In this document: positions 22,301 through 64,000 of the stretch, in pieces
Numbering within the stretch: position 1 is the stretch's first letter
How the letters are laid out: each line of letters starts with the position of its first letter
Source of the DNA: Chaetoderma sp. LZ-2023a
Lineage: Eukaryota; Mollusca; Caudofoveata; Chaetodermatida; Chaetodermatidae
Reading direction: 5' to 3'
NCBI GenBank assembly: GCA_034401795.1
Contig: CM067372.1
Span: forward strand, 19,879,722-19,943,721
Length of the DNA: 64,000 nucleotides
Position numbers and translations under genes: made by a program
Notes under the pieces: model-generated
The model's input: the letters and a program-made list of their open reading frames with translations, nothing else
Told to the model about the DNA's origin: nothing
The model's database searches: none

Positions 22301-25300
22301 AGAAATCTAATGTCATGACCAATCACTAAGCAGGAATCTAATGTCATGACAAATCACTAAGCAGAAATCTAATGTCATGACCAATCACTAAGCAGGAATC
22401 TAATGTCATGACCAATCACTAAGCAGAAATCTAATGTCATGACCAATCACTAAGCAGAAATATAATGTCATGACCAATCACTAAGCAGAAATCTAATGTC
22501 ATGACAAATCACTAAGCACAAATCTAATGTCATGACAAATCACTAAGCAGAAATCTAATGTCATGACCAATCACTAAGCAGAAATCTAATGTCATGACAA
22601 ATCACTAAGCACAAATCTAATGTCATGACAAATCACTAAGCAGTAATCTAATGTCTGGACAAATCACTAAGCACAAATCTAATGTCATGACAAATCACTA
22701 AGCACAAATCTAATGTCATGATAAATCACTAAGCACAAATCTAATGTCATGACAAATCACAAAGCAGAAATCTAATGTCATGACCAATCACTAAGCAGAA
22801 ATCTAATGTCATGACAAATCACTAAGCACAAATCTAATGTCATGACAAATCACTAAGCAGAAATCTAATGTCATGACAAATCACTAAGCAGAAATCTAAT
22901 GTCATGACCAATCACTAAGCAGAAATCTAATGTCATGACAAATCACTAAGCACAAATCTAATGTCATGACAAATCACTAAGCAGAAATCTAATGTCATGA
23001 CCAATCACTAAGCACAAATCTAATGTCATGACAAATCACTAAGCACAAATCTAATGTCATGACAAATCACTAAGCAGAAATCTAATGTCATGACAAATCA
23101 CTAAGCAGAAATCTAATGTCATGACCAATCACTAAGCATAAATCTAATGTCATGACCAATCACTAAGCAGGAATCTAATGTCATGACCAATCACTAAGCA
23201 GAAATCTAATGTCATGACAAATCACTAAGCAGAAATATAATGTCATGACAAATCACTAAGCAGGAATCTAATGTCATGACCAATCACTAAGCAGAAATCT
23301 AATGTCATGACAAATCACTAAGCACAAATCTAATGTCATGACAAATCACTAAGCAGGAATCTAATGTCATGACCAATCACTAAGCAGAAATCTAATGTCA
23401 TGATCAATCACTAAGCAGAAATCTAATGTCATGACCAATCACTAAGCAGAAATCTAATGTCATGACAAATCACTAAGCAGGAATCTAATGTCATGACAAA
23501 TGACTAAGCAGAAATCTAATGTCATGACCAATCACTAAGCAGAAATCTAATGTCATGACCAATCACTAAGCACAAATCTAATGTCATGACAAATCACTAA
23601 GCAGAAATCTAATGTCATGACCAATCACTAAGCAGAAATCTAATGTCATGACCAATCACTAAGCAGAAATCTAATGTCATGACCAATCACTAAGCAGAAA
23701 TCTAATGTCATGACAAATCACTAAGCAGAAATCTAATGTCATGACCAATCACTAAGCAGGAATCTAATGTCATGACCAATCACTAAGCAGGAATCTAATG
23801 TCATGACAAATCACTAAGCAGGAATCTAATGTCATGACAAATCACTAAGCAGGAATCTAATGTCATGACCAATCACTAAGCAGAAATCTAATGTCATGAC
23901 CAATCACTAAGCAGAAATCTAATGTCATGACCAATCACTAAGCAGAAATCTAATGTCATGACCAATCACTAAGCAGAAATCTAATGTCATGACAAATCAC
24001 TAAGCACAAATCTAATGTCATGATCAATCACTAAGCAGAAATCTAATGTCATGACCAATCACTAAGCACAAATCTAATGTCATGACCAATCACTAAGCAG
24101 AAATCTAATGTCATGACCAATCACTAAGCAGAAATCTAATGTCATGACCAATCACTAAGCAGAAATCTAATGTCATGACCAATCACTAAGCAGAAATCTA
24201 ATGTCATGACAAATTTTGCCCGTGAAATGATTAATAACTCAAGGGATCAAATTTTGTATTAATTCATAAAACTGTCTTCTCTTAACCTGCAAATGGACAT
24301 TCCTTATGACCCTTGCGGAGGCCAGTTATGCCTGGCTTGACCAGCTAACCCTTTGACACATTAACACTCATATCAGCCAAAGATACCTTCTGCAGTGATC
24401 TTGAGAAATGTCCATTTGCAGACTAAACGAAGACTATTTTTGAAAATTTATCACTGGAATGACTGGCTCGATAACCGAGCCAGTCATTCCAGTGGTAAAT
24501 TTTTAAAAATTGTCCTCTCATGGCCTGCAAATTGACATTTTGTATCAGAAAATTTAAATTTTCTTTAAACAAATTTGAGGGTTAAACGGACAATGGTCTG
24601 GGAAACATGGCTAATAAATAAATCATAAAGATAAATAATTTATGAATAGGTTGCTAGAGGGAAGACGTGATGGGAATATCTTAATCAACCTTTCCAGTTT
24701 ATCCATCAATCACATGACATCATAATCAACTACGAGACGTGTAGGATGATGTCATAATCAATTACATCATGAATGACGTAGATAAGTTCATCACAAACGC
24801 TTAATTGATGACAGACTAAGCATTGTTGGATGAATTGTATGTCTTTACCATTTAATAAACGTGCGATGGAATATTTTAAATATTTAATATCCAGTCAAAT
24901 TACTTTCAAAATATTCAATAGCTTAACCTCTATAGTTTTCTGGAAATTGATAGTCGGGGAGTTCAGGGATCGATCGATCCCAACAATAGCGAAGTGTGGG
25001 TGGAGCTTAGTTAGAGATGGGCAGGGCGTAGCTAAAACTGGATTCCTCCATTATATGAGAAGTTTAAAAGGCTTTAACACCAGATATCTGTAGAATCAGT
25101 AGAAAGTTCAATCTGACTGATCATACCGAGTAACCATTGAACTCTCATAGACCCAAAACAATAAATTGTTTACATTGTACGGAATATTCTATGGGAGCGA
25201 CAAGTGCCAGTCAAATTAGTTTCAAAATATTCAACAGCATCCCTATATAACTGTCTTGAAATTGAGACTCTAATTTCAATGGTTAAAGATATTACAGAAC

Positions 25301-31300: not shown

Positions 31301-34300
31301 CCTCTGACTAATTTATTGGCTGACACTATGCAAATTTAAGAAAGCCTGAAGACCGAGCCTCTGTGGGGCAGAGAGGTCGGGTCCGTGTTAGGGAGGTAAG
31401 TATCAACTCTCTCGTGAAAAAATAAATCCGTGATTTCGTTTATTTCACTTCAAGAGTATACATACCTCCCTAACAGTCTTTGATATTGCCAGAATTCGTC
31501 AGAGAATTCGGCGGGAGGGAGGTGAGGTCAAAAGACCAGCTCTTCCCTATGCGCTTTTCTGCGTTTAAGGCACTTAAACTTCTGAAATTGTGTAAAAACA
31601 CAACCAGAGATAGAGTTGAATATCAGATAACACAACCGATGGATGAGAGAAGACCATATGTCATATGCGCTCCCCACCCCCATCCCCTTCTCTTGTGAGT
31701 GTAGCTCGCGGGGGTACACGCTGGTCCGTGATGTTGCTCCACTCTATTGCACCACATTACAGGATGTGCGGGAGGGCTGGTTAGCTACGGTTCTCGGGGT
31801 TACGGATCCCGTTTCGCGACTCTGAAAGGTACAAAGACCGGCCTCTAGAGCCGGTGGAACGATCACGTTCCAGTGGGGCCATGCGACCATTGCCGCCGAG
31901 ATTGACCCTCATGGTCTCGTCCCAACTGTCCGTGTCACCGGTATGTCAGTCCATTAACTAGTTTAAATGTCTGGACTTGATAATATAATTAATAGTAATA
32001 TCCTATACAAACAATGCTACTCGTTTGATAGTAAATAAGCAAAATAATACAGTACATAGAACCAACCTGGTGTTCTTTCTACGTGGGCTCGCCGAAGGTA
32101 CCACACAGATTTGTAAATCTGCAGAGGTATCCCCGCAAGGGAGCATCGCAACGAGGCTACTTGAATAGTTTAATATAAACCAATTATACTCCTAACACAC
32201 ACAAAATATTATTGTTGTGAGAGGAAAGTGTCTCGCATGGGCCTCCGTCACAGGAAAATGCCTTCAACGACGAGGTGGAGGAAAAGAGCTGGCAAAAAAG
32301 GCCACTCTTTTGTTCAAACAAAAAGCTTAGTGCAGTGGTCAATCCTAGTGAAGTCATAATTAACGTGATGCACACAGGTTTACATGAAGACGGGACGGAT
32401 GATTTCCGAAGAATTCGCGGGTAACCGTCTTATGTAGGTCCAAAGATACTGCATTGGTAGTTGCTTCTTTATTTATGCAGGCCTTCTGCTAAAGTCTAAC
32501 CTACCCTTTAGTTGTTAGATACGTTTCCAAGCTTTGGCCGCGAGTGGCAGGGATTCTTACCTATCTTTAGACACATACATCTAACCGGCGAAGATGCCCA
32601 GCTTCCCGAAGGTCGCCCCACATAGCATGTTCCTCAGAAAGACCGCGTGCGTACATGTTACGGAGAAACAGCTGCCGAATCACATGACGATCCGGTCACC
32701 ATTGCACCTCATCCACATATAACATCACCAGGACAAATTACAGTTCACATAAGCAATTTAGAAAGAGCAATAGCATTTATGGTGGGGAGTAAAAGACAGA
32801 TATCCATCGCTAGTGGCCTTCCCGTGAGGGCGTGGTGGGTTCTAAGACCTCACCCAGTCACTATACCGAGTTGGATGGAGATTTGCGTCTCGTCCATCAC
32901 CCGTGTGTTACCGAATTAACATTTCACCTGTCATTAGGGTTAAGTTCCAGAATGCACAGAGATGCACTGCAGGCCAGTCTACATAATATAATTTCTTTTC
33001 TTCCTACATTGGCGGGGGAATCTAAACTAACTGGTATCCGAAGATACTGGGGGAAGTGTATGTAAATCAAAACTTTAGTTATCACCGTTCAGAAACCCCA
33101 ATAGTTTCCGAGTTGAATCCTGCCAACGTGTCGATTGGGAGTCCAGACAATTACCACGCCATGAGGCTGGAGGAGTGCAGAAAGAGACAATCACTCGATA
33201 TTAATAAGAGGCCCTAAGGTAATTGGCCAATTTTATACAATCTAGCCGGTGTGTGGTATTACATATCCACTACAGCCAGAAAAGAGGCGTACACAATGTG
33301 TCTCTTACAGAAAGATTGTCCCTAACTACTTTAAACCTATCCTATCGAGCTAGAATAGCTAGGTTTAGTCGGTCACATGTCAGGCTCGAGCATGTGAGCA
33401 TGATCAGTGACCTCAGTGTAAAATTGATGCTGGGGGAATATATTGATGCAGATATAATGTTGCTGTATAGTATTACCTAGCGTACTGTGTCCTAGAGTTT
33501 TCATATAAACAAAACATAATAACTAGGATAGCTACTTGCCATATATACACCTGTGCAAAAGTTAAGCACCAGCAAAAACAATAGAACGTAGAAACATGAT
33601 GGTACAACTAGGCTGCCATACTTTTTGTCCCCGCGTTAGCTGACATAATTCCAAGTACGAAATGCATATGCATGCATGACTTCACGCCGCTTGATGTCCG
33701 TGCGTGGTGGGAAACAGCACATGTGTTCAGTTATGTAAAAGTCCAGTTTGAGGTGTAGAACATTACATACAGATTTAGGCGACAAGATTAGGAATTTTGT
33801 GTTCATGACCGTGGTTTATTTGTACAGAGAGAATTAGCTCTTGATTGTGAACCGCTATGGCAAGACGAAGGTTAAGTGATCGTGTGAAATGGCAAATCAT
33901 AGGCATGCATACCACTGGTATGTCATGCAGAGAGATTGGCAGACAGCTGAACATTAACCATACTGTAATCAGTCGTTTGATTGCAAAACATGGGCAAACT
34001 AACAAGATGAAGGACAGGCCTAGATCTGGAAGACCGAAGAAGACTACTGCCCGTGATGATCGAGCCCTAGTACGCCTTGTTAGGAGATCTCCATTCACCA
34101 ACAGCAGAGTGCTCAGCCAGCAATGGGAAACGCGCAATAGAGTGTCAATGTCTACCGTCAAAAGGAGACTGTATGCGGCTGGCATGAAAGCTAGGAGACC
34201 TGTCAGACGTCCTCTCCTCACTGCACACCACAAAGAGGAGCGTCTGAGGTGGTGCAACGAAAGAAGACACTGGAACATGAGATCCTGGAGACGGGTACAC

Positions 34301-37300
34301 TGGTCCGATGAAAGTCGGTTCCTGCTTCATGCCACAGATGGTCGAACTCGTGTATGGAGGTCCAGACGCACGGCGTACGCCCAACGTAACATCATGGAAG
34401 AAGTTCCATTTGGTGGAGGTTCCGTTATGATATGGAGGTGCATCTCATTTGATTGTAAGCTGGATCTGTTGAGTGTACCTGGAACACTAAATGGACAAAG
34501 ATATCAAGATTCCATACTGGATAGAGTTGTGGTCCCTCATTTTGTAAATCATGCACCTGGAACCCACCCTATATTCATGGATGACAACGCCCGACCACAT
34601 CGTGCTAGAGCTGTGCATGAATACCTCCGCCAGAATGCCATCGAAACCCTACCATGGCCAGCAAGGAGCCCTGACATGAACCCTATTGAGCATATCTGGG
34701 ACATTCTGGGAAACATGGTGAGAAGGAGGGATCCTCCTGTGCAGAACCTACAGGAATTAACAGACGCACTCCATCTTGAATGGCAACGAATACCACAATG
34801 GCGTATCAGTCGGTTGGTGACCAGCATTAGACGTCGTGTCCAGGCCGTCATCCAGGCACAAGGTGGATATACCCGGTATCAATAATGACAGTCTCAAACT
34901 CGTGCACAGATGTTAAACTTAGTTTTCAGACACCATTAATGACAATCTAGCCATGTGTGTCAACTGTAGGGCAATAGTTGTCAGTTGTGTCAACGTAACC
35001 ATATTCAGGCCTCGTTTTCAAGTTCAAACAAAAACATACAGTGTTTCCCCACCATCATAATCAGCATTCCTCTAGTTGCATTATTACCTCTTGCACTAAG
35101 ATGGATGGGTACATAAATGTTTATGCTATTGCTTTCTTCATAGCACATGAATATACCCTCGCATGTGCGTAAAAATAGGGTGGTGCTTAACTTTTGCACA
35201 GGTGTATACATAACTAACTAATACAATGCTGACAGTATATCAGGTCATAAGACCTTACGGTGCTTGTTAGTTGTAAGCACATGGAAATAAAGATAATATA
35301 TACCATATGAAACAGAAAGTATAAAAATCTGGTCGGAAAGACCGGGAAGGTACCTATTAGTCATCAGTACTGTGTACTGAAATAATGAAATGTACAATAG
35401 TATAGTTACTTGACTACCTATTGATCATCGGTACACTAAGTTCATAAATCACAGAAATTGATATGCTACAGTTGAGTAGCGCCAGATGGCACCATTCTAA
35501 ATGCAGGGAAGATTTTCACAAGCAGACTGTTGATGCGGCTCACTCTCAAGACGGTGAAGAAGAACAGTTATAGAAAGATGTCTATTAGATAGGCACAATT
35601 CCGAATGCAGGGAAGATTTCCGCAAGCAGACTGTTGATGCGGCTCACTCTCAAGATGGTGAAGAAGAACAGTTATAGAAAGATGTCCATTAGATAGTCAG
35701 AATAACTGATACACAGTGTTATAAAGTTTCCGTCCGGCGACGGTAGTTTGAAAGTTGGCCATTAACAACGAGGGCTACAGTTGTAATTAAATATGCATGT
35801 ACATTAAATTGGGTACGCAGTGCGGGATACATCCCATAGCTCTTGTGATGCACCGAGCAGAGTCCCACCAGACTGTGGTCTAAAAGTTAATTAACACACG
35901 CGACATGCTGCGTGGAAGTTTGATACCTCTTTTCAGCATGGTCTGGAAGATCCGGCGAGTCATCCACCAAGAATCACCTCGGCTTTACATCCTGTGGAAT
36001 ACATCGGGCCCGCAAGGCCCATCCGCAGGAAACTCCTTTGTGAGCGCTCCGAAAAAAGGGAGTTCTTATATTAATTTATTTTGCCCCCGGATGGCCGTCC
36101 GGGAGCTTCCAAAATTGCTATCGCGGATGTCCAAGACTGCTCACCAGCGCAGGAGATCTCAATTCCGAATGGCACTGCTGTTAGTCTGTGAGCTTGTGTA
36201 CCTTATATGCATTTTTGGGTATAGTAGCTGAAACTTTCAGGAAGTATTTTCATGATATCAAGATACATGAAACCACTTGATACCAATTTTTCCTATCTAT
36301 CGATAAGCCGCCATCTTGGATTTCAAAATGGCCGCCATATTCAAGTTAGTTTTCTACTTATATCGCCGGCTGTTTATTGGCATACATGATATCAACGTAC
36401 ATGCCATACTCTATAGTATGTGTTTGCATTAGGGATTCATGTAAAATGATAGAAAATAAGATAACAAACAACAATGTCCCCTAGAACGGCCATATTGGAT
36501 TTAAAAATGGCCGCCGATATGGAGAAACCCCTATTAAATTACACAAAAATTATCCAACTGGTCCTTGCCTTAAAATGAGTAAGACTTTACATTAATTGGT
36601 ATATGTTTAGAGAAAAAAAAGAACATATATACATTGTATAAACCAGTGGTGTAGCAATAGAAGGTTCAAGGAACATGGGCCCCCTGACCATTAGGGGCCC
36701 CACCAGCCTGCAATATTATTTTATGCAGAAGTTTTGAACCTTCTTTCTTTAATAATAATGTGACCAGAAATACCCCCTCCATCTCCTGCATTCTGATAAA
36801 ACCTTTTTATCAGAATGCAGCCTTGCAGTAGATGACTTCTCAGATCATCTACTTTCCCAACTTTAATCGTGAGTAGCACTCAGAACCACTCCATACTGCA
36901 ATGGCGTAGACAAATGTGGCTTGTGTAGGGGCTTAAGCCCTAAAGATTTTGGCAAATATTTTTCAATTCTGCACAATCAACCAAATGAGTGTCTATATAT
37001 ATATATACCTCTGAGAGCATCTAAAATTTAAAAAACCCTCTGGGGAGGACATCCAGAATTGGGACCCACACACGTTCTGACCAGGGGCCCCCAAACGACA
37101 TCGCTACGCCACTGGAATACACATTACTCACTTGTAATATATCCAAAATAGATACCTTTTTTTACCATTTTTAACATTTAAAAAATAATCTTTTGATCTT
37201 TTGGTTACGACGGCTGTTTGCCACCTCGTCCCAAACTGCAAATTTGCTACTATTTCTTTGACCAAAACTGATGATTAAACAACAATTCAAATTCGCTTAT

Positions 37301-40300
37301 TGTAAATATAATACACTGAAGTTCTAATTTTGAGATCAGTTTGCATCATCTGGGTCAACATAACTACTTACGTTCTGGCAATGGTCTTCCTCTCCTTCAC
37401 ACCGGCACAGTTCTGTACACACTAGACCTTTTAATCGACATGAACATCTACCTAAAGCGCACTTATTTGTTGAGCTTGGGTTAGTGGTACCACACGTACA
37501 CCTCACTAACTCAACCACCGCTGCAGGGGCTGGTGCAACCTTGGAGAACAGAGGTACAAGCCTGTGCTCTTCCTTCACCCAGCCATCCTGTAAGGGATCT
37601 GGTGATAGTGGACTGACAACAAGGTCTTGTTCCCACACCGAAGCTTGGCAGTGAGCACGCTGGATATGCTAAACCCATGTTCCATGTGTCGGTGGTAGCA
37701 TGTCGACACCTTTGTTCATGCCTTGTTGTTTGAATAGGTGCCATCTGAGGTGATGGGGCTAAGTAATGTGCACATTCTTCTTACAGAATAAACTACATAA
37801 AAAGGAAATGCACCCATTTAATGTATCATTAGAAGGCTGGGTGTCACAGCCGAGGCCGGATATTAAAGTTACAATCTTGGTATTTGCTTTTAGGAAGGCT
37901 TCTAAGCACGCTTTCTTAGACTTATGCAGCCTGTGGTATCTTTTGCTCTCTCCGGTCCAAGAGCATCATAAATAGGTTGAAGTAGAACTAGTCGTCGTCG
38001 ATCACCCGTGCCCATCACCAGGACAGATTTCTTGCCAAGAAGAACTGTACGTCTCAGCGCAAGAATCAAAACATCTGCATCCTGACTGTAAATGTGAACA
38101 TTATATCCAACTTTATTTGCTTCCACTGCATGCAAGATCATTAAGGTATCGGCTTCTTCTTGTGCACTGACACCAGGAGTGGCATTATTGGTGTAGTTGG
38201 ACATCACTTCTTTGCGTGTGGCTGTTATCATACACATTTTAGAATGGTCTATTAATCTCTGTGCAAGATAAAGTGTCAACAAATCTTTTGTAGCTACACT
38301 TCCAAGGAATACTTTTAATTCAGGAATTTTGGTATTGCCTTCTACATTATAATCTTTTGGCTGTGCCTTTCCACCCCTGCGTCGTTCATGTCTTGATTCC
38401 TTTAATGAGCCAACGACAGCGTAATTGTCAAAAATTACCCTTACAGAATTGTAATTACGTGATTTGATATCAATGAGCTCAACATAAGCTTTGCCAAGGG
38501 CTTTACCATTTTCAAATGACTTCACAGCCATGAGTTCTTGTACTACAGCCATACTGTCTACAATTAGACAGAGCTGTGCATCTGTGGAACCGTATGCACC
38601 ATCTGAAATGAGATTGTCTTGGCAATCCTCCATCGGTGACACTGGAAGATTCTCGAAGACAGTTATCAATGAGCCTTTATTTAATGTTGGGTGCACAGAA
38701 CCATCTGGTCTCATTAATGTCCGATTAACAGTTGTAAATTCATAATTACCAATCACCTCTTCCATATCTATTTTACGAGATGAGCGCGCTACAACAAGTA
38801 GTCGAGACATTAGACCAGACGTTGCCTGGAGGGTTAAAACATCAGACTTTGCCTGTACTTTAACCTCCTTGGTTGTAGAAGTCCATGTAAACGACTTACA
38901 TTTTGTCATCTTGTCCCAAAGATTTGTATTTCCACATATTCTTTCATCAACAAATTTCTGCATTGCAGATTTTCCCATGAGCTCACAGGACAGGATGCTT
39001 TCCTCAACAGCTTTAGGAACTATCCCATTAGTGACAAGCTTAACCATTGCTGTATTGCCACTCTTGAATATTCCACAAGGTGCTAGGACATCAAATAGCT
39101 TTTTAATAGCTTGTTCTTGCCCGAGTGTTGTTGACTTATTGAGTTCATGGTGATCCATTTTACTCTGTTTCTTTAAGTCAGCCATGGCCTCTGTTTCATT
39201 GGCAATTCGTGCTAATTCTGGTGCACACATACAAAACTTCAGAAGAGTAGCCGGAGACTGAGTGATGCCACCAATAGCACCCTGACCTTTGAGATTTTTG
39301 TTTACATGTTCTTGAGCATGATCAATACCGATGCGAGTGAATGGTATCTGGTTGGAAGTGTTCACAGTGAATTCATGTGCCATAAACTCCTGCCAGATTT
39401 CTGGATCAGTAGTTTGAAGCCGACACATTCGTGCAATATATTCTGGAATATTCTGTGCATAATCATGCCTCCCATAAGCAAAGAAATACACACATAGTTT
39501 TTCAAGTGACAACAGGTGAAGGAACCAGTCACCTAGCCGGGTAGCACGCTGGAATTGCAGTAAGATCAAGACCTGTTTCATGTACATTCGTGCCCATTTG
39601 AAAATGGGCTCTGTGTTGTGCTCAGCATCAAAGTCGGCAAGCTGTTTCTCTATATTAAGTGACTCAAGTGTGATTAATAATCCCTTATCTGACTCACGAA
39701 TGCTCTGTTTCGATGTGCATGCATCAGACAGTATTTTAATACTCTCTTCAAGAGCTACGCGGACAGCAGGCCTTTCAGCAAAAAACTCTCCTATCCAAAG
39801 ATCGAACAATACCTGCAGGGTGACTTCGTGAGCTTCCATAGCTCTGTTGCAATGATTCCCATTTATAATTTGATTAACAGTCACAGAACTGTATAAACCT
39901 GCTTCGACCCAAGCCTCGTCAATCCCGCTTCCTTCTATGGCCTTTACCAAACATCTGAGAGCACATACTGAAGTGTGGAATACACCTGGACACACAACAA
40001 ACTGATCCTTGAACCGTGAATCCAAATCTTCCAACTTCAACACTCGTTTGTATAGATCCATGTCAAATGTGACAACAAGCTTCCGCCCATTACCAGACAC
40101 CAGGCTGTTCAATCTACAAAGTTGGTCTAAAGTGGTAACCAGGGTTGACCATTCGTGTGCTGGGGCATTTATGATAGGTAGAGTAAATGCCTTATCAACA
40201 ATCAAAGAGGAATGATTCGTGGATTCAGGTGTGTTTGAAAGACTGTTGTATGCAGCCCACACTGGTATCATTTGCGTTGTTCTCTCGTCATCTACTACTT

Positions 40301-43300
40301 GTGGAGACATTTGTACAGATATTTCACCTGAACTCAATAAACACACATGCTCCTCTCGCACTGCTGGCATATTTGATATGTCAGTTACTGAAAGCATACC
40401 TTGTACATTATCTGACAAAATATTGGTAACATCAAAAGCAGGAATCGTAACTTCATCAGAGGCAACTGTTTTAGGTTCTACATCAGACAAATTTAAATCA
40501 ACTGTTTGAGATCTGTTGAAATATCTTGCCATCATCCAACACATATCATGCTTTATCGCTCTATCAAAATGTTCATCGTAGGAACCCACTTTATACGATG
40601 CATAATGGGGACTGAATTGAGGTTTGGGACTGCCTTCTAAGTCACATTTAAGAATCTTGATGCATGTGCTCGGAACACCTAAAAGGCCACCAGCAGAAAC
40701 TTCATATAGATCAAGTGGTTCTACCAAGGTCATTCCAGCACATATTGGCTGATATACACAAGCTGCCATTGCATGGAAACTTGACTTTCCATCAAAAGTA
40801 TCAACTTTCTTGTCAACATTATCAGCGGAAGCCCGAATAGCTCTACCTTTCACAATACCAACTGGGACAAAAATACCATTTTTATTGATGTTTTCTTGCA
40901 CAGCATTGGCTGTCTGACTACAAACCCTGGTCACCCGACTATATGATATTCCACAACATAAATGGCTGAACAGATTTATAGCGGTCTGGCTGCGTAAATT
41001 GTGATATATCCACAAAGACAATCCGACTGCATATGGACTTTCACATTGGCGACGAAAAGTAGACAATTCAGACTGAGATTTTGTTGTGTATGCTACTTGC
41101 TTTGAAGTTTTAAATTCCTGCATCATCGGTTGAGAAATTGTGACACATGATTTTCTTAGAGACTGATCTCGCAACTCAGTAGTCGCAGCCTTAGAACGTT
41201 GCAAGATCCATCTGTTTAACATTAATACCGCTACTGGCAATCCAGATTCGCCAACACCATCTAGAGAGCCTGTAAATACCCAAGGTTTCTCTTTTCTGGC
41301 TTTAGTTATCTCTTTTCTGATGATTTTGGCACATTTAACTATTATATTAAGGTCGCCTTTTATGTCTTGTTCAGAAATAGCAATATCGACTGCTTCACGT
41401 CCAGATTTTTTTTAATGGAAGACGCCAGGTAATTTACCTCTATGTTGGGATAGTTCAATGTCTGGTAAATTGTGTGTGATGTTTGTTATTAGTGTTCGTC
41501 TGGCTATTGCACGACCAGTGACTCCGTGGTCACGCATCATATTATAATACAATTCTTCAGCCTGAACAGTCGTTATATAGTCTCCCGATTCTATTCTTTC
41601 ATGCAACTCATCGTAAAATTCCATCTCTGCTGCTATAAAGAAAATCGTCTCCTCACTATTCTCTCCAGTATGTGGTTTTGCAGGATTTGTGATAGACAAT
41701 GTCCCTAGCCAGAAAGTCCCCTTCTGATATTATGTCGGCCAATTGTACTTTCCAGGATGCATTGTCACTTTTATCTACTATCTCTTTGACAGATATCCCG
41801 CTATTCTCACTACGACAGGCATATAAAATTTCATTATCTTTTTCCGTATTTTGACCGTGACAGAAAAAGCACTTTTCACGATCAAAACGCTCTGTGGCAG
41901 ATCTCAGTAGTACGCTACTAGATTCTACAGATAAGGTTGGGCGCCCCTTCCCCTTATGTTTTTCAGGATTATTGAGATACTTAATCTCGTCTCTTTTAGC
42001 TTTGTTCTTGTCTGTGGTTTCACTATAACAGCTGCGATGCCACTTAGCACCCTTTTGCAAAAGGTCCGATGCTGTTATACCTATTAATCTGTTCCCTACA
42101 TTAATAAAATCATGACTGCCCCATTCAGATCTTTTGACATTCGCTAAAAATGTATCATATGATTCTACATCTCGGGGGGTGGTCAATCTTTCTTTCTTAT
42201 TATATTCTTGGCATTTAATACATAAACTGTAATCAGTTGGTTTATTTTTTGCCGGCAATTCCAATTCACTCTCCATCGTTGACTACATGTGTTACCAAAT
42301 GGCAAAGATATGCAGTTTGTCTGTTTGTTAGCAGACGACAGCGCTTTTTATAAATAAAATTTGAGGATAAGCGCAAGATCGTCTTTTCAATTTACTTTGA
42401 TCCAGAGATTCTAAAATTATCCCTGGCCATGTATTATTATAAAAATACGTTTTTTAACCTTTTAAACAAGAAAGTTTGGGATATAACACTCATTTACGAT
42501 TGAATAATTATTATGATCAATATTTTGAGCTTAATTTGACTAGGTTATGTTGCTGTCTATGGCAGCAACATGTTCCAGTTAAATTAATTATGAAATATTC
42601 AATAACATACCCTTCATAGTAGCCTTAAAATTAAGATTCTTGGTATTCAGGGTTCAAAGGGTTAAACATATTACTATGATATTGCCTATCAACCATCATA
42701 CATGATCTGACATGCATTAAAACATATATCTAGACACTAAAATCAAGACACTAGGCGATTAATGCGTCAAAATGTTGAAAAACTGTTTTTCAGATAGCGG
42801 CCATTCTGAAATCCAATATGGCCACCATAACGACAAATGAAAATTTGGTATCAAGTGATTTTGGATTCCCAGATGATTGAAGAATATTCCCTGAAAGTTA
42901 CATGCATTAAAACATATACCTAGACACTAAAATCAAGACACTAGGCGATTAATGAGTCAAAATGTTGAAAAACTGTTTTTCAGATAGCGGCCATTTTGAA
43001 ATCCAATATGGCCACCATAACGACAAATGAAAATTTGGTATCAAGTGATTTTGGATTCTCAGATGATTGAAGAATATTCCCTGAAAGTTACAGCTACTAT
43101 AACCGAAAATGCATATAAGTCTCAATTTTCCTACTCAAGGCGACAGACTGTGGTGTAGGTACCACAGTCAGTTAGCGGTTCTCCCACATCTTGCATTGCG
43201 CTGGTCCAGCACTCTTGCTGACTGTTGGCTTCCACGCCAAAGTGCTCTCGATTCTCAATTTCTGGCTCCTTTTATACTACTCATGACGTCAGAGGCAGGA

Positions 43301-46300
43301 CACTCCAGCCAATCAGTGGGCGAGCAGTAGCCAATCAGCATGCAGCTAGAAATGGTGATGTGGCGATCACGTGAACAGCGCATTCCCCATTCATTTAATA
43401 CATACACACAATTACGATGTCAAAGTAATATTTTGAAGATAATTTAAGTGAGCCATTTAATAATAACTCTGCCATTTCTGGTCCCATTTTAAAAAGGTAA
43501 AAAGTTCTGAAATCCTCATTTCATTCTTGCCCTGATTGGTACCAAGAATGACGGGAATAGTGTGATTTGATGGAATCACCAGTACCAACTCGGTACACTA
43601 TAAGCATACACTCTCTCCCAATACTAACACGTGTTGCCAGGGAAGCTTTGATGTGTGCTTCGTATTCTTACGGACTTAGCCGTTTTAACGAAACCTCTCT
43701 TACAGGGCTTTATACACGCGTACTATCCTACTCAGGGGTGTGTGCTTGGAATGTACCCGGAGCGGTCGTCCCGTACCCAGCCTAGCTGGGACGGTCCATA
43801 CCCATTCGGTTGATCCGTGCTACAGGAGGAAGACAGAACGACCTCAATGTCCCATACGCTCTCCATGTACAAGTGCCATGTGCTATAGGACATTAAACGA
43901 AAAGGCTACATTTTTGTATACTCTCAAGAATGAACCACATAAAAACATGCACCATTACCATATTAATAACGAATGGTCACGTGACAACACAATGAACAAC
44001 ACATGAACAAGACTGACCTTGTGAAATGTTAGCTGCTGTCATCATCTTCCCATTGGTGAAGGCCGATGCAGTCTAGTAAGTGGTTGTTGCCACTGATAAA
44101 TTGTGAAGTATGTAAAAAAAATGAGAGAACCTCATCAAAATATGTACACCTAAATTTTTCTTTTTAAATCGATAAGGCGAGAGGATTCGAGGCGTCATGG
44201 AGGTAATGGTCGGTGAAACTTGACTCATAGTACCACTGGGCAACTGACATAATGTCATCCACAGGAACCTCATTAAACAGGGCAGTGGAAGCCACTACGC
44301 TGCGAACACTGTGAGCCTTAGTTAAGTCAACTTGTTTACCTGTGGCGGATTTATGACAAAACTGAATACATTCTGCAATCCACATGGAAATGGTGTCCTT
44401 AGATGCCCTGCCATGGGGTTCGATATATAACAACTATAACACTAGTGGGTCCGTCCGCCATTCCTGAGTACGCTGTTTGTATCGGTTTAATGCATTTCAC
44501 CTCTACGATTTGCCGAGGCTGCAGCAATTAAAAATAGTTTTAAGTGTCAACATTCTCATAGAAATGTAACTTAGTGGTTCAAATGGCTTATCAGCTAGTA
44601 CCTGAAGCACTAGAGCTAAACTCCAAGACGGAATCACTGGGGGATTCCTAGGTTTTAGATTTCCCATGCCTTTAATTAAAGTATTTAGATTACATACTTC
44701 ATCACTTCCCCTATTAACCAAGCAAGGGATAGCTGTCATCAAAGCTGAGTTGTAGCCAGCAATAGAGTTAGGCTTGAGGCTATAGGCATCATACAGGTGA
44801 CAGAGGAAATCGGCTACTACCTGAATAGATGAATTCATTGGATTAATACATCTTTTTTAGCACCATTCAGCAAATCTGTTGATTTTATAATTATATGCTC
44901 ACGAGGTTGAACGCCTTCTGACTTTTGCCATGAACAACGCTACTTACTCAGAAAAGCCCTCTTTAAGTATAGATTCCTTGACAACATCCACGCAGTCAAT
45001 CTGAACATTGACGGATTGTTGTGAAGGGCCTTGCCCTGGAAGATAATATTGTCTATCAGAGGCAGAGAAAGCAGATTGCAGACCCGAAGGTCCGGCAGAT
45101 CTGTATACCATGATCAGCTTGGCGAATTTGGGGCAATCAGAAGCACTTGGCACTCCTCCTGTCTGATTTTCTGAAGAATTTTTGGAATCAGGATTGCTGG
45201 AGGGAATGTGTATGCATACATTCCCACCCAGCTGATAGCTAAAGCGTCTGTTGCAATAGTGCTCGGATCTGGAATCGGAGAGACGTACGTTGTCATCTTC
45301 GCATTCTTCTTCGTTACGAATAAATGTTGGGTTTCCCCCAGTTGTTGAACAGACGTTCCGCCACACATTGATTCAGTTGCCATTCCGTAGGTAAAACACT
45401 CATCCTTCGGCTCAATGAGTCTGCTAGCAGATTTAACCTTCCCGGAATATGAATTGCTTTCAAGGTGATCCTCTGATCCAGACACCAGCAAAGCAATTTC
45501 CAAGTCATCATACAGAGACTGGGTGACTTCGTTCCGCGCTGGCGGTTTATGTAAGTCACTACCATTGAGTTGTCTGATTGACCTAGAACAATCTTGCCCT
45601 GAACTTTCTCTATGAAATGTTCCAGGCCCAGGGGATGATACACAAGGGGAGCTGCGCGAACGCGCTCTTTGTGGAGCACTTCAAATTGCTCACGCAACAC
45701 CCTCTGGTTATTGACCAGGGTGACCGTCTCCTGGAGGTGCTTACATCCCTCCACTCCAAAGAGACCAGGACCTGTCATAGGCATATGCAGCAGCCTATTA
45801 TACAGGTCCTGGGACAGGCACAGGTTGTCCAAGGCAAACGTGCACTGTGCCCGGACACTCCTGGTCACAGACCGGGTTAAACAATCCAGAGCCAGGTTAA
45901 TCCCATCTTGGATGGCTCTCTGGACCGTTAACGGACTAGGCTGATGCGATGCGGATGCTGTCACTACCCCCTGTAACAGCAGAGAGACATGTGAAAGCGC
46001 TGCAATAGATGCCCTCAAACTCTCCTCCACATCGCGCAACGCGGTATTAGCCGAACACAAAGCGTTCGTGCACAGTGCTCCCGTGTCAGACCAGGAGTCT
46101 GGCCGTGTATCCTCGCCTAGCGCAGCACGGTAATCCGCACTCAGCTTAGGCACCACACCATACCTCTGATACTCCTCAGGTACGATGCGACATCGTTTCG
46201 CCACCTCGCGAGGGGCCTTCGCGAGATGTCCATGCGCCTTACTGGACATCTCTGCCACTGTAAACATATCTACAATATGCTCCACTAGCGCCAGAGATGG

Positions 46301-49300
46301 CATAACGGTAGCAGTCGGCTTACCTGCCAGCCATGGGCGCTGGTCCCGTTGGCTGGCCGACTGATCCACAGCAAGACCTGGCCTGACGTTCATTAGCCAA
46401 TGACAAGCATCAGACCAGTCTTCCTCTGTGGCTGCCTGTGAATGCTCGACAAGGCGCGGTCCTTCATCATCCTCTTGAGAAATCGCAGGCGTATACGTGG
46501 CTGGAGGAACTGATACTCCTGACAGGCCAGAGAAAGCATGCGGGCCCGAGAGAGCAGGCATGCTAACCTGACTGGCTTGACTAGGAGCAGTCACCATGGT
46601 ATTGCATGGGGAAAAATTTGCCACACCACGGCCCTGGCCAGAACCAGCTACACTATCGGCAAGCCGAGGTATGAGGTAATGCTGGCCATCAGATCTGCCC
46701 GGGTTACCTTCTGCGCCATGAATGCTACTCCTGCGCGAGTAGTCACATAGAAAATGTCGCCTGTGCTCCCCGCGAGCAACTCTGGTACCAAATCATTTAT
46801 TGTCCTCTTCATCTCTCCCATCATCTCAAGACGGAAGGCCTCCATATCACCATGGTGGATGAGGCCTTCCTCTTATCCTTCTTAGCAAGACCCTATTTCC
46901 TCACTCTTCTCTCCTCCTCTAACGCCTTCTCCTTGGCCTGCAATGATAGAAATTCAGCCATTAGCTCCCCCCTCCCCACTGTTTACAGATGTCAGTTTAG
47001 CAATGGACCACAAGGACTGCATTGAAAACATAGACGGGGGGGGGGGCAAATCTCTTTCAGAAACCTTCCACAAGAAGGAAAACAAGGCTTTTGAAAACAG
47101 GTCAGAAGACGAAGACAATGAGAATTTTAATCAATGACTTAATAACTCAAAACCAAAATAAAGATCACTAACAAACAGATAAACCAGCGTTGGACACTAA
47201 ATTTTATTAATTGATAATAAAGGTGCAAGGCTGATTATGATGTCATAACTTAAAATATAAGTAGTTACTCGGACTCGAAAACAACATCCAGGTGTAAGGA
47301 TGAATTGTATTCATATCAAGATAGGGATAACTGTCATTAAAGCTGATTTATAACCAGCAATAGAGTTAGGCTTGAGGCTATAGGCATCATACAGGTGACA
47401 GAGGAAATCAGCTACTACCTGAATAGATGAATCCATTGGATCAATATATCTTTTTGAGCACCATTCTGCAAATATGTTGATTTTATAATTATATGCTCTG
47501 GAGGTTGACCCCCTCCTGGCTTTAGCCATAAACATGGCTGCTTGCTCAGAAAAGCCCTCCTTAATTCTAGATTCCTTGACAACATCCACGCAGTCAATCT
47601 GAACATTGACGGATTGTTGTGAAGGGCCTTGCCCTGGAAGATAATGTCGTCCATCAGAGGCAGAGGAACCGGATTGCAGACCAGAAGGTCCAGCAGTTCC
47701 GTATACCATGATCGGCGTGGTCAATTTGGGGCGATCAGAAGCACTTGGCACTCCTCCTGTCTGATTTTCTGAAGAATTTTTGGAATCAGGATTGCTGGAG
47801 GGAATGCGTATGCATACATTCCCAGCCAGCTGCTAGCTAAAGCATCTGTTGCAATAGTGCGAAGAGATTCTCTGTCTTCAACCACCATTGAAGGTGGTGA
47901 ATTAGAGGCTCCAACACTGACACGTTTGAGTCCAGTGAACCGGTACTCTGGGTCCATTGCGTCATGAGAAATAACTGGATCGGCCGCCTGCGTAAGGCCG
48001 CCTGAGGAATGACTGGCTCCAGGGAAACCATCAACCCCAGCATTCTCAAGTAAACCCGTGCCAGGACATGACGACTGTTGCACACTGACTGTATTACTGA
48101 GATGAGTATCTGAACCCTCTCCTGAGTAGGATAAACATATCCTGTCTCTAGATCGAAGAACATTCACAGGTAAACAAACTTCTGGGATGGAGTCAGCTCT
48201 GATTTTTGGAAATTGATTATCCAGCCTAAGTCTGTGAGTTTTCAAAACTATCTCCAGATTCGCCGATAAACTTTCCTGGTTGTGTGCTTTTAACAGCCAG
48301 TCGTCTATGTACGTGTGGACTGCTATGCTTCTCCTGCGGAGGTATGCTGTAATCGTAAGAACCACTCTGGTGAAAACCCGAGGAACGGTAGAAATTCCGA
48401 CGGGTAACATCCTGAATTCCCACTGTCTGCCCTGGAATGCAAATCTCAGGAAGCGACGGAAACTCCTCGCTACAGGGATGTGGAAATAAGCATCCTTCAA
48501 ATCTATTGAAGCTGTCCACATTCCCCTCTCCAACCGTGCCAACCCCGACTTCACAGTCTCCATCTTGAAACTGGGCGTCTCTATGAACTTGTTCAATGGC
48601 TTGAGGTTGAGAATTGGTCTCCACCCTCCGGTGCTTTTTGTTACTAAGAACACGGTTGAATAGAAGCCCGGACACTTTTGTGCTGGCTGAATTGCTCCTT
48701 TTTGTATGAGGGAGTTTATTTCCTCCTCTATACACAACCTTTGATCTGCATCTCTTGGAATCTGAGTCCAGATTGGCACCAGAGACAGTCGCGATGGTGG
48801 GCCTGTCATCCAATCGGGATGATACCCGACTGAAAGCCATCGCAAGACTAAACGGTCCTGAGTCAACCGTTCCCACTCTTGCTTGTGGTGGGCCAACCGG
48901 CCCCCCACTGGACCACCTAGGGAGAGAGGTGGACATAAGGAGTGCAAGAGTGGCACCGTCTCTTTTGCCAGAAACACCGGAGTGGTTCTCACCGTGGTAA
49001 CCGGCCCATCAGGCACGATTACCATGACCAGATCCTCGTGCGCCACGACCAGCACCACGCGCACCTCGGTGCGCGGGTGGCTGCTTGCGCCCCCTCACTG
49101 CTGGCCGAATCGCACGCGGCCGAGGCCGACGCTGCGATGGTGGCTGGCCTCTGACATGGCCACCTCCACCTCGAGCCTGCAGGGGATGGTATGCAGGGGG
49201 TGCTGCGCGAACGCGCTTCCTACGGAGCACCTCAAACTGTTCGCGCAGTGCCCTCTGATTGTTGACCAGAGTGACCGTCTCCTGGATGTGCTTGCATCCC

Positions 49301-52300
49301 TCACCTCCAAAGAGACCAGGGCCTGCCATAGGCGTACGCAGAAGCCTATTGTACAGGTCCTGGGATGGGCACAGGTTATCCAACGCAAACGTGCGCCTCG
49401 CCTGGAGACTTCTGGTCACAGCCTGAGTCATATAATCCAGAGCCAGGTTGATACCATCCTGGATGGCTCTCTGGACTGTTATCGGGCTCAGCTGGCGCGA
49501 TGCGGATGCTGTCACTACCCCTTGCAACAGCTGGGAGACATGAGAAAGCGCCGCAATAGACGCTCTCCCACTCTCCTCCGCATCACGCAATGCGGTATTG
49601 GCCGAACGCAGTGTGTTCGATCACAGCGTTCCTGTGTCAGAACGGGAGCCTGGCCGCGTATCTTCACCTAATGCCGCGCGGTCATCAACGCTCGGCTTAG
49701 GTACCACACCGTACCTCTGATACTCCACGGGTACGGTGCGGCAGCGCCTTGCAACCTTGCGAGGGGCCTTCGCGAGACGTCCATTCGCCTTGATGGACGT
49801 CTCCGCCGCCGAGAACATATCAACGATATGCTCTGCTAGCGGCAGAGATGGCATGGCGCTAACAGTCGATGTACCAGCTAACCACGGCCGGTGGTCTCGC
49901 TGGCTAGCCGACTGTTCCACGGGCAGGTCTGGCCTGACGCTTATCAGCCATTGACAAGCGTCTGACCAATCCTCCTCCGTGGCTACCTGCGAAAGCTCTA
50001 CAAGATGAGGGCCTTCGTCTTCCTCCTGAACAAACGCAGGCGAACTTGAAGTTGGGTGGCCTGACACTCCTGGCAAGCCAGAGAAAGCATGCGGGCCCGA
50101 CCAGAACCAGCTATACTCTCGGCAAGCTGAGGTATGCGGAACAACTGGCCGTCAGATCCAACCAGGGCCACCTTCTGAGCCGTGAATTCCACTCCTGCAT
50201 GAGTAGAACCGTGGACAATGTTGCCTGTATTCCCCGCGAGGGGTGCACAGATGTCAAAATCCATGGCCACAGCATCAGAAGGGGAACCCAGCAGATAATC
50301 CTCTTCTTCCTGGCCAGAAAGATTAGACTCCGGGTCAGCAAAGAGAGCTAACCCGGACTGGCCAGGAAAGGTGCCATAGGAGGTACTGGCACATGGGGCA
50401 TGCGGATACCCCTGGGCTGATAAGCAGCCAGCAGGTTCCAGCAACAACCGTCCACGGACCACCAGCGCGGCAAGCCTGCTACCAGTGTCGTGGAATGCCC
50501 CCTCTAATGGGGCTACCTCTGAATCATCGAAAACTGGTAGCGGCCTAAGGAAACCAGATTCAGAGGCGGGGATTATCTGCTCTGAGGCAGACGAAGAGGA
50601 CAACAAAGGATTTGATCCAGGAAGCATGCTACGGAGCAACTCTGGAACCAAATCCTTGATTGTCCTCTTCATCTCTCCCAACATCTCACTACGGAAGGCC
50701 TCCATGTCCACTGAGGACGAGGCCTTCCTCTTACCCTTTTTACCTGCTAGCTCTCGTTTCATCTTCCTCTCCTCCTCCCCGACCTTATCCCTTGCCTGTA
50801 AAGATAAGAACTCATTCATTAGTTCGCCCCCCCCCCCCCCCCACTGCTTGCATACATCACACTTAAGCAATGGGCCACAAGGACTACATTGGAAGCACAA
50901 GTGAGGGATGAACTTCTCCTTTAAGAAGCGACCACAGGACGGATAACCAGGTCTCTGAAACAGGGCAGAAGACGACGACAATGAGTATTTTAGTTAAGGT
51001 TAGAAACTCAAAACCAAAATAAAATAGAGGAAAGAATGATCATAAAGATCACCTATCAATATGAGAAAACCAGCGTTGGGAAAAAACTTTAATTGTTAAT
51101 AAAGTGCAAGGCTGATTATGACGTCATAATTTCAAGAAAGAAATTAAATCGATCCGAAACAAACATCCAGGTGTAAGGACGAGCTGTATTCATATCCAGA
51201 ACATCTAACTAGAAAGGATAGAATATTCAGGCTACACAAACATCCGATAAACAATGATAATACTGGCAAAGGTTTATATAATTATTTTTTAAAATAAGAG
51301 AAGTGCCTCATATCATTAACTAGAATACCTGATTCTTTGCATAGACAAACCATCCAATCTGATGAACTGGAACACTCCACCAAGACTATGACCTCTTAAC
51401 TCTCTCCACCTTACGGGGAAAGGAATTGGACCAAGAGGGCAAAGTGAGAAGACCTTCTTACGAGGCCTCCGAATCACTGGACATAGACTTTTTGGTTAGA
51501 TAACCTAACAGTATTAGTAGGAAATGGAACCTTGGTGGAGAGAAACAAACCCTCTGTTGATGTGATGTCCCATACATATCCTAGACAGATACCTGTGGAC
51601 ATAAACACAAAGAGAGATTAGTATTATATAGCGCCATTTTGAAATAAAACAACTATATTAGGCGCTTATCACGATAAACGTGAGTCCCAGAAACACATTA
51701 CACCGGGAAAGACTCGCTAAAATATAATAGAAGTCACCTGATGGATAGATCCTGGGCCCTCCTCTGGCGAAGTAATTCTATCTGCCATCTTTACAGGTGT
51801 TCTAGACTCCTAATAAACGCTTAAAAAGACTTGGAAAAGCTTTGAGCACAAAAGCATGTGTACACCCTCTGCCAATAAATTAGCAAAGAGGAAGTGCTAG
51901 TCTGCGCATGCACGGTGGTGGGGCTGGCATCCGCCAGACTGCCCTCTGACTCCCTGCCCAGTAGGGGCACCTAACTGTTTTAATCTGAGTGTTTATTGAG
52001 TGAAAGCCGATATTTAGCAATATATCAAAGAGTATTAGGGAGGTAAGTATACTCTTGAAGTGAAAAAAGATAATCTAGATTATTGTCTTGAGAATGTCAC
52101 GTTGCAGGCCAAAATGAGACTAGTTTTCCAAGATTTACCACTGGAATGACTGGCTCAATTATCAATTCAGTCATTCATGGTAAATGTAAAGCTAGAAGCT
52201 ACGGCTTGCAAATCGTCTTTGGGGCATTTTTGAAAAACTTTAACAACAAGACCAAACCACATGAAAATATGGGACAAATATGAAAAACCTTAACAAGTCT

Positions 52301-55300
52301 AAACCACATACAAATATGGGACAAGTATGAAAATCATTATCACTATGATGGAGTGGTGCGAAATATAAGTTCAAACCACATAAATGTATGGAAAAATTTT
52401 GAAATTTTTTTTTCATTCTGATGCAGACAGGATGTAATGATTTATATAGACCAAATCTGTACAGTTTTATCGAGATCAGATAAGCCCTTGATGAATTAAA
52501 TCTCCATTGAAGAACTTTTGCATTTACCTACATGTAATTCTGGCTGCACGCCATTTGGATCGCTGTGTCAAGCCATCCTCCGCTTTCCAAGAGTTCGACG
52601 AAAATAGTCTTATGTTGGCCTGCAAATGGATAAAACCTCAAGATCTTTGTAAACACAATTAGTGGTCGGCATGACCAATGAACATCAAAAACAAATGAAT
52701 AATGAAATGGATTAACAATAATAGCAAAGAAAAATAAGCTGTATAGCAAATAAGCTATAGATAGCCCACACAGACACACAAACCTATTCGGATAGACATA
52801 CTCAAAGCATAACTAAAACATTTGCTGAGGGCATATAACATGCAATGATCGAAGGACAATACCTGAAATTCAGCACCAGATTTGGACATCAAATCATCAT
52901 AGTTCAACCATCCTGGCCTGAAAAAAAGCATACAAGAAATGCAAAAAAGTTTACCTTGTTACCTCGGAGCCACGTATCCCATATTTGCCTGTCAGATGAG
53001 TCCTGGAAGGCTGAAACTGGTCGTAGAGCGGATGAGTCTCATGGTGGAGAAATATGTCATTACATGTAATTAATGTCCACAATACCACAATCACATGTGC
53101 ACACTTTCTAACTGAATCACATAGGGAGTCAACAATACCACAATCACATGTGCACACTTTCTAACTGAATCATATAGGGAGTCAACAATACCACAAACAC
53201 ATGTGCACACTTTCTAACTGAATCATATAGGGAGTCCACAATAGCACAATCACATGTGCACACTTTCTAATTGAATCATATAGGGAGTCCACAATACCAC
53301 AAACACATGTGCACACTTTCTAACTGAATCATATAGGGAGTCCACAATACCACAATTACATGTACACACTTTCTAACTGAATCATATAGGGAGTCCACAA
53401 TACCACAATCACATGTACACACTTTCTAACTGAATCATATAGGGAGTCTACAATACCACAATCACATGTGCACACTTTCTAACTGAATCATATAGGGAGT
53501 CCACAATAGCACAATCACATGTGCACACTTTCTGACTGAATCATATAGGGAGTCCACAATACCACAATCACATGTGCACACTTTCTAACTGAATCATATA
53601 GGGAGTCCACAATACCACAATCACATGTGCACACTTTCTAACTGAATCATATAGGGAGCCCACAATACCACAATCACATGTGCACACTTTCTAACTGAAT
53701 CATATAGGGAGTCCACAATACCACAATCACATCTGCACACTTTCTAACTGAATCATATAGGGAGTCCACAATACCACAATCACATCTGCACACTTTCTAA
53801 CGGAATCATATAGGGAGTCCACAATACCACAATCACATCTGCACACTTTCTAACGGAATCATATAGGGAGTCCACAATACCACAATCACATCTGCACACT
53901 TTCTAACGGAATCATATAGGGAGTCCACAATACCACAATCACATCTGCACACTTTCTAACTGAATCATATAGGGAGTCTACAATACCACAATCACATGTA
54001 CACACTTTCTAACTGAATCATATAGGGAGCCCACAATACCACAATCACATGTGCACACTTTCTGACTGAATCATATAGGGAGTCTACAATACCACAATCA
54101 CATGTACACACTTTCTAACTGAATCATATAGGGAGTCCACAATACCACAATCACATCTGCACACTTTCTAACTGAATCATATAGGGAGTCCACAATACCA
54201 CAAACACATGTGCACACTTTCTAACTGAATCATATAGGGAGTCCACAATACCACAATCACATCTGCACACTTTCTAACTGAATCATATAGGGAGCCCACA
54301 ATACCACAATCACATCTGCACACTTTCTAACTGAATCATATAGGGAGTCAATCAGACCTTTATCCTTTAACCCTCAAATTTATTCAAGAAATTTTTAATT
54401 TTCTCTGCCTCGGTTATCGAGCCAGTCATTAGTGGTAAATTCTCAAAAATAGCCTTCTTTTGGTATGCAAAGAACATTTCTCAAGACAACTGCAGAAGGC
54501 ATTTTTGTCTGATACAAGGGTTAAACGGTTAAAGATCAAAATCTAAATCTTTCTTAATCACGGCCAATCTACAGCTCCACAAGACGATATTTGAAGAATG
54601 TATCACTGAAATGCTATCAAACCAGTCATTCTGGTATTCATTTTTTAAATATTGTTCTCTTGACAGGCAATTGGGATTTGTTCAAGAGCACTGCAGAAAC
54701 CACCATTGAGACTTGATCATTCAAGTGGTTAAATAACACAGTTGCATCAATACAATGGCAGAAATGTATTAAATCATTTTAGATCTATATAAAGAACATT
54801 TACCACTGAAATGCCTGCCACGATAGCCCAGCCAGTCATTCTAGTGGTAAGTTTAAAAAAAGCCCGAAGGAGCACGGGTATCGCTCAACTGGAATTAGTG
54901 GCCACTGGCACAATCGCGCTTACCTGGACCATAGGCTTCTCAACTAGAATGGTAATTAACAATAAGTAGAACTCTAATGAGTTGAGCAGACTTGTAACAA
55001 GAAAACAGAGGCCATGTTTCTTTATGTATCAACCTCTCTTGAACAAACTTTAATGGCCCTTAGTCATCAATGTCATATCTCCCAAATTTCGGCACAATCC
55101 ATTCAGGGGCTCTGGAGATGAAGTTGCTTTCATGAAAATAAGGGGCCCAAGGGGGCTGTGTCACTCACCTGGAGCACTGTGCATTTTTGTCAAAATTGTT
55201 GGTGGGTGGTTTAGGAGTAGTCATTTAAATGAGTTTGTGGACATTTTGGCAAGTCTAATATGGCTGCCAAACATGCTACATTTTGATTGTTCCACCTCTG

Positions 55301-63642: not shown

Positions 63643-63659
63643 AGGACGAGGAGTATGAG

Positions 63660-64000
63660 CAAACTAGTTAAGCTTAGACACTCAAACCAACTCAAAGAGA
63701 AGGAAAACGATCATAAAGATCAATATACATCAGAAACCAGCATTGCAACTTGAATTGCTGATAAATACATAGCCAGGCTGATTATGACGTCATTAATCCC
63801 GTGACAGGAAAAAATCGATCCCAACAAACATCCAAGTGCAAGGACGAATTGTATGCTGAATGGATACGTCGACTACACAACCATCAGATACACATAGATA
63901 ACTCTTTTCTGGCAAAAATGTTAATTATCTCCCTTTGCTTACTATAATTAACATCACCACATTATCAATAACTAGATACCTGACACCTTGTATAGACAAA
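63660..64000 (-). other. DIRS 5' leader with TGACGTCA, no gene
   Basis: It is homologous to 50982-51250. It holds TGACGTCA at 63785-63792. The element continues past the window edge. Confidence 0.7.

Follow-up and report, generated by a model that had tools for sequence, protein, structure and literature searches.

The transposon described here lies in a 64,000-nucleotide stretch of the genome of the caudofoveate mollusc Chaetoderma sp. LZ-2023a (assembly GCA_034401795.1, contig CM067372.1, positions 19,879,722 to 19,943,721 of the forward strand), and this whole stretch is referred to below as the window. Many copies of its family are present in this animal genome, and the one in the window is nested in another repeat. 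The most likely identification, with a probability of roughly 0.85, is that of an autonomous DNA transposon of the cut-and-paste type, present here as a decayed copy and belonging to AcademX, a lineage of the Academ superfamily compared by published description only. The best reading makes it a new family within a superfamily already known and not an undescribed class. An original prediction, made from the letters alone, had described a 6.9-kilobase (kb) inverted-repeat unit around a gene resembling PIN and FEN nucleases and proposed an undescribed mobile element. That the gene family travels as a DNA element, decayed and lying inside another repeat, is borne out by its ends, target duplications and empty sites. 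The word "undescribed" has to be given up, as duplications of 3 or 4 base pairs (bp) combined with a nuclease correspond to AcademX as published (PMC10045372).

Ends, copies and target sites

The assembly searched comprises 2.44 gigabases in 2753 contigs. A search with the left arm of the element yielded at least 40 matches, all at 99-100% identity (of 491 first-look candidates, 40 were scored), and a search with a 332-residue part of the C-terminal domain of the encoded protein yielded at least 122 (121 scored of 5063 candidates), both counts being lower bounds. Twenty copies were fetched as stretches of 9.9 kb each, and BLAST comparison with the window unit located both ends in 16 of them; the right end was not found by BLAST in fetched copies L010, L017, L020 and L021. 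The inverted arms around one large minus-strand gene, as first noted, are real: positions 36202-36248 and 43073-43119 are 89% complementary, and when the two element ends are aligned in inverted orientation with gaps, the score is 177, whereas the highest of 200 shuffles reached 57. As termini of the element, the arms are ruled out, since common sequence extends outside both of them in the 16 copies with both ends found, by 20 bp on the left and about 31 bp on the right. Because these copies share sequence out to TAGTCTGTCAGC... on one side and ...GGCGACAGACTA on the other, in variants with no more than two mismatches, the element is taken to run from 36182 to about 43149. Part of the stretch beyond the right arm is lost in copy L018. 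The tips of the element read TAGTCTGTC...GACAGACTA, and those of the window copy TAGTCTGTGAGC on the left and GGCGACAGACT on the right, where the last base or bases are gone.

Exact tips occur 157 times (left) and 116 times (right) genome-wide, and an exact search for the reversed tip patterns found none in the genome. Among 100 listed left tips of the 157, 44 can be paired with an exact right tip that lies no more than 20 kb away and on the same strand, with right tips taken up to C13:29.1 megabases (Mb) and two left tips sharing one right tip. Forty-two of these pairs measure 3.3-8.6 kb (28 of the 44 span 6.58-7.53 kb), and the other two measure 13.9 and 18.3 kb. On contigs C1-C12, 42 tip pairs are correctly oriented and none shows any other orientation. 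The same contigs hold 74 matches to the C-terminal domain. An exact left tip, correctly placed as to side and strand, accompanies 51 of them, an exact right tip 41 and both tips 27; no wrongly placed left tip lies beside any of them. The expectation that the same arms would bracket the same gene in other copies is borne out in part, and nine of the 74 have no exact tip of either kind nearby. These nine, together with a resemblance of the protein to uncharacterised multi-copy invertebrate proteins, would suit a nonautonomous element that had captured a multi-copy host gene. Such a capture is highly improbable, given the 51 rightly placed left tips with none misplaced, the absence of introns, the neutral evolution of the tested pair of copies and the several divergent families of the gene in the genome.

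The pairing also left 20 left tips without an exact right tip or an entered gene match, and nine pairs without an entered gene match, where the gene matches entered were part of the list of best candidates scored. Gene matches exist for at least four of these 29 (C9:39.71, C8:55.37, C11:135.94 and C13:30.66 Mb). Deletion derivatives had been anticipated, and copies with internal deletions exist, for example L014 with 3505 bp between its tips. Short forms consisting of the arms were not found, the shortest exact-tip pair being 3.3 kb among the 44 pairs from the 100 listed left tips of 157, with altered tips outside the search.

Perfect target duplications were scored at 36 independent insertions, 16 from the fetched copies and the window (segmental duplicate L012 being dropped) and 20 from as many of the 44 tip pairs, for which 80-base stretches at the tips were read. 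A duplication of 3 bp is present in 22/36, one of 4 bp in 7/36 and none in 7/36. In 2000 random re-pairings of flanks, the mean number of perfect duplications was 2.3 and the maximum 9, compared with the 29 observed. The mixture of 3 and 4 bp looks real because a 4-bp match stands in a different register from a 3-bp match. A target duplication, as originally foreseen, is present at 29 of the 36 insertions, in two lengths instead of a fixed one.

The window copy is one of the seven insertions lacking a perfect duplication. When its flanks are joined without the transposon, they match another repeat. Of 3226 candidates, 40 were scored, and every one of these 40 matches spans the junction; the shortest extends over bases 20-242 of 248. 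Three fetched empty copies run uninterrupted across the junction, with GCTGTGGTGTAGG or a close variant. The simplest reading of the window target is TGT, 2 bp having been lost from the right junction; CTGT would fit as well if the loss were 3 bp. Some copies in the genome are segmental duplicates, as L011 has flanks in common with L012 and the alignments of L020 and L021 are alike. This is the observation on which a retrotransposed or segmentally duplicated gene with incidental inverted arms could draw, an explanation that the defined ends, the duplications at 29 of 36 insertions and the empty sites in the target repeat render next to impossible.

The window copy has a tandem duplication of a 190-bp subterminal unit that includes part of the right arm, and the number of units ranges from 1 to 4 per insertion in 16 loci and the window, where the unit was found (loci L009-L028). 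The transposon thus has its own expandable minisatellite at the right-hand side. With part of the inverted repeat inside each unit, the array may represent a putative set of binding sites.

The gene and its protein

The gene is read from the minus strand as N-terminal, main and C-terminal cysteine-rich open reading frames (ORFs), and the EEAD, QDAD and DTTGC stretches are present in it. The window gene is decayed: it is split into three pieces or more, lacks 11 aligned residues before DTTG in comparison with sister copies, and loses its frame after DTTG. Sister copy L025 has an open frame of 1232 codons from the N-terminus, in which the N-terminal part is continuous with the rest, and L013 has stretches of 379 and 995 codons in one frame, with one stop between them, reaching the C-terminus. 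Together, and with the last part taken from L026, they define an intronless gene of about 1,670 codons. A spliced host gene is ruled out, as the frame runs without introns in the sister copies and in L082, a member of a related family whose frame is open for at least 1,536 codons.

The genome contains several divergent families of this gene. Three related sequences (L041, L082 and L083) show 38-55% identity to the window protein over the first 905 residues of the main ORF; the outer ends of the family of L082 (F3) were not obtained, and no relatives were found in viral contigs. The ratio of nonsynonymous to synonymous differences per site (pN/pS) is 1.12 over 905 codons for one within-family pair, the window copy and L025, which indicates neutral decay of copies once they have inserted. 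Comparisons between families give 0.35-0.48, with synonymous sites saturated, which points to long-term constraint on the gene. Such values are expected of a selfish gene, one maintained by transposition and nothing else.

The DUF6589 region of the main ORF (Table 1) is proposed, from its sequence, to be the DDE/RNase H-like catalytic region. No papers mentioning DUF6589 were found in the literature searched. Another DUF6589 protein in the genome (L038, G000:C17:87176500-87181000) has a different plan, with GDNLNF and GDQLT motifs; it has the best DUF6589 score among 102 matches listed and adjoins a reverse-transcriptase-like ORF. At the ends of the protein, Pfam offers little: the N-terminal part at 41656..42276 has no significant match, the C-terminal cysteine-rich piece of the window has none, and the C-terminus of L083 matches TCR weakly, at E 0.055 and below the cut-off. 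Rfam gave no match over the window.

The acidic motifs of the C-terminal domain are ordered D, FD, EAD, DxD and D, as in the FEN1 of the same genome. In an alignment of six rows from three families, EAD, DxD and the last D are invariant, and the first D and FD persist in most of the rows that extend to them, FD being changed in L013 and L039. Further partly decayed fragments keep most of the acidic motifs; L166, L168 and L169 are among those that have lost some. By eye, the domain resembles the FEN1/XPG flap nucleases in motif order, that is (I/V)D, (V/I)FD, an EA-rich stretch, D-x-D and GCD, but its profile similarity to them is not significant. At the level of motifs, a PIN/FEN fold is thus suggested. 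A first scan of genome contigs with the animal's own FEN1 found no relative, and a search for FEN1 in phages found none. The host FEN1 gene itself (L084, G000:C16:42732250-42733700) appears intronless, with an open frame of 390 codons.

Placement among DNA transposons

According to a 2023 paper, AcademX is characterised by duplications of 3 or 4 bp and AcademH by 9 or 10 bp, lengths that the paper connects with the encoded nuclease and helicase (PMC10045372). The window element agrees with AcademX in the length of its duplications (22 and 7 of 36 insertions), in its size, in its terminal inverted repeats and probably in its nuclease, as judged by acidic motifs that stand in FEN order and are conserved in related families, with no significant profile match. 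The comparison covers these traits, the TAGTCTGTC tips, the 190-bp units and the CXC-like tail lying outside it. AcademH is of the same superfamily by name and differs by a helicase and by its longer duplications, whereas the element has 3-4 bp and a Pfam scan of the window protein revealed no helicase. Academ elements are reported as amplified in bivalves, with 100 curated elements of mean length 5565 bp in one survey (PMC10294476). A clam genome paper lists Academ-1 in a table as 2833 and 3377 in two columns (PMC8905726).

Several observations weigh against this placement. We infer the name AcademX from a published description, and the link of DUF6589 to Academ is conjectural in the same way. 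DUF6589 falls below its cut-off of 27 bits in related families (23.6 in L082 and 18.8 in L083), and a profile search with the transposase region returned just an unrelated PDB hit (E 0.65). For the nuclease, sequence and profile searches of PDB for FEN, XPG and PIN gave unrelated weak hits only, and Pfam gave a hint at most, 5_3_exonuc_N at E 0.048. Comparison with FEN1 by hhalign reached probabilities of 0.1% (2 sequences) and of 0.2% and 1.3% (81 sequences); the reversed control scored 0.2%, and the best alignment was out of motif register. Additionally, there are the nine gene matches without tips, which may be decayed or truncated, and the seven insertions without a perfect duplication, of which the window copy is accounted for by its empty sites and the other six are unexplained.

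A DDE superfamily separate from Academ, which had independently come to have 3-4 bp duplications and a nuclease domain, is unlikely. It gains from the comparison with Academ being by description and from DUF6589 appearing in no paper found; it gains also from KolobokP, another group of DNA transposons, which combines 3-4 bp duplications in some families with an extra nuclease (PMC9587614). Against it, the duplication length, the likely nuclease and the element length all fit AcademX together. Moreover, the His-Me finger nuclease and the long flanking direct repeats given for KolobokP (PMC9587614) were not found here. Between 34500 and 44500, the direct repeats found are the 190-bp unit, confined to the right side, and a duplication of 104 bp that lies outside the element, with no long terminal direct repeats in that interval. 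A related proposal, itself rather doubtful, is that proteins with DUF6589 and the acidic motifs, presumably familiar to annotators just as multi-copy proteins without a name, constitute a single class of transposase, with a FEN-like nuclease built into transposition as the source of the mixed 3/4 bp staggers; such a class may stand apart from Academ.

For an AcademX element, the following mechanism can be proposed. A single intronless gene would give one protein of about 1,670 residues. Its Cys/His N-terminus and CXC-like tail might bind the inverted ends of about 170 bp and the subterminal 190-bp units. The DUF6589 region, acting as a DDE-type transposase, would cut the TAG...CTA tips and join them into the target with a stagger of 3 or 4 bp. 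The FEN/XPG-like domain may process branched or flap DNA in excision or gap repair; the nuclease of AcademX is one that we take to be of XPG type.

To our knowledge, the role of the nuclease in Academ-type transposition is unsettled. For this group, the element supplies ends, duplications, empty sites and related families, including L082 with its long open frame. By tying DUF6589 to transposition, it would also help to rename multi-copy invertebrate proteins now called "uncharacterised".

Annotated features and surroundings

Table 1. Features of the transposon copy in the window; roles of protein regions are putative
Feature	Position	Strand	Basis or remark
Whole transposon copy	36182..43149 (right end approximate)	gene on -	ends common to 16/20 fetched copies; empty-site comparison
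Target duplication TGT, left copy	36179..36181	.	right copy short by 2 bp near 43149; three empty copies of target repeat
Left terminal inverted repeat, about 170 bp, imperfect	36182..36355	+	inner limit approximate; takes in the arm starting at 36202
Right terminal inverted repeat, about 180 bp	42970..43149	-	inner limit approximate; takes in the arm ending at 43119
Two 190-bp tandem subterminal units holding part of the right arm	42710..43089	.	1-4 units per copy
N-terminal part of transposase gene, with ATG	41656..42276	-	Cys/His pairs CIKC, WHRSCY, CFFCH, YHKSC; zinc-finger-like by eye
Main transposase ORF, 1169 codons	37902..41411	-	frame broken at both ends in window copy
DUF6589 (PF20231) region	39159..40031	-	Pfam E 1.5e-14, 54 bits against cut-off 27
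FEN/PIN-like acidic-motif domain (IVD, IFDNY, QEEAD, SQDAD)	37905..38603	-	motifs aligned in F1, F3 and F4
C-terminal Cys-rich block, Tesmin/TSO1 CXC-like	37372..37515	-	within ORF 37336-37638

The window contains other mobile and repetitive DNA. About 1.3 kb from the element lies an open Tc1/mariner-type transposase ORF of 342 amino acids (33851-34885, plus strand), which matches Pfam HTH_Tnp_Tc3_2 (E 4.4e-17) and DDE_3 (E 4.4e-10). Long minus-strand ORFs at 44503-50993 and 58597-63663 resemble, by eye, a DIRS-type retroelement, apparently in more than one copy, with stretches resembling reverse transcriptase, RNase H and a tyrosine recombinase. Satellite arrays are also present: a 31-bp satellite fills nearly 12 kb at 12434-24214 (380 copies, 95% matches), and satellites of 78 bp (53 copies) and 53 bp (24 copies) occupy 1-4129 and 53075-54349.

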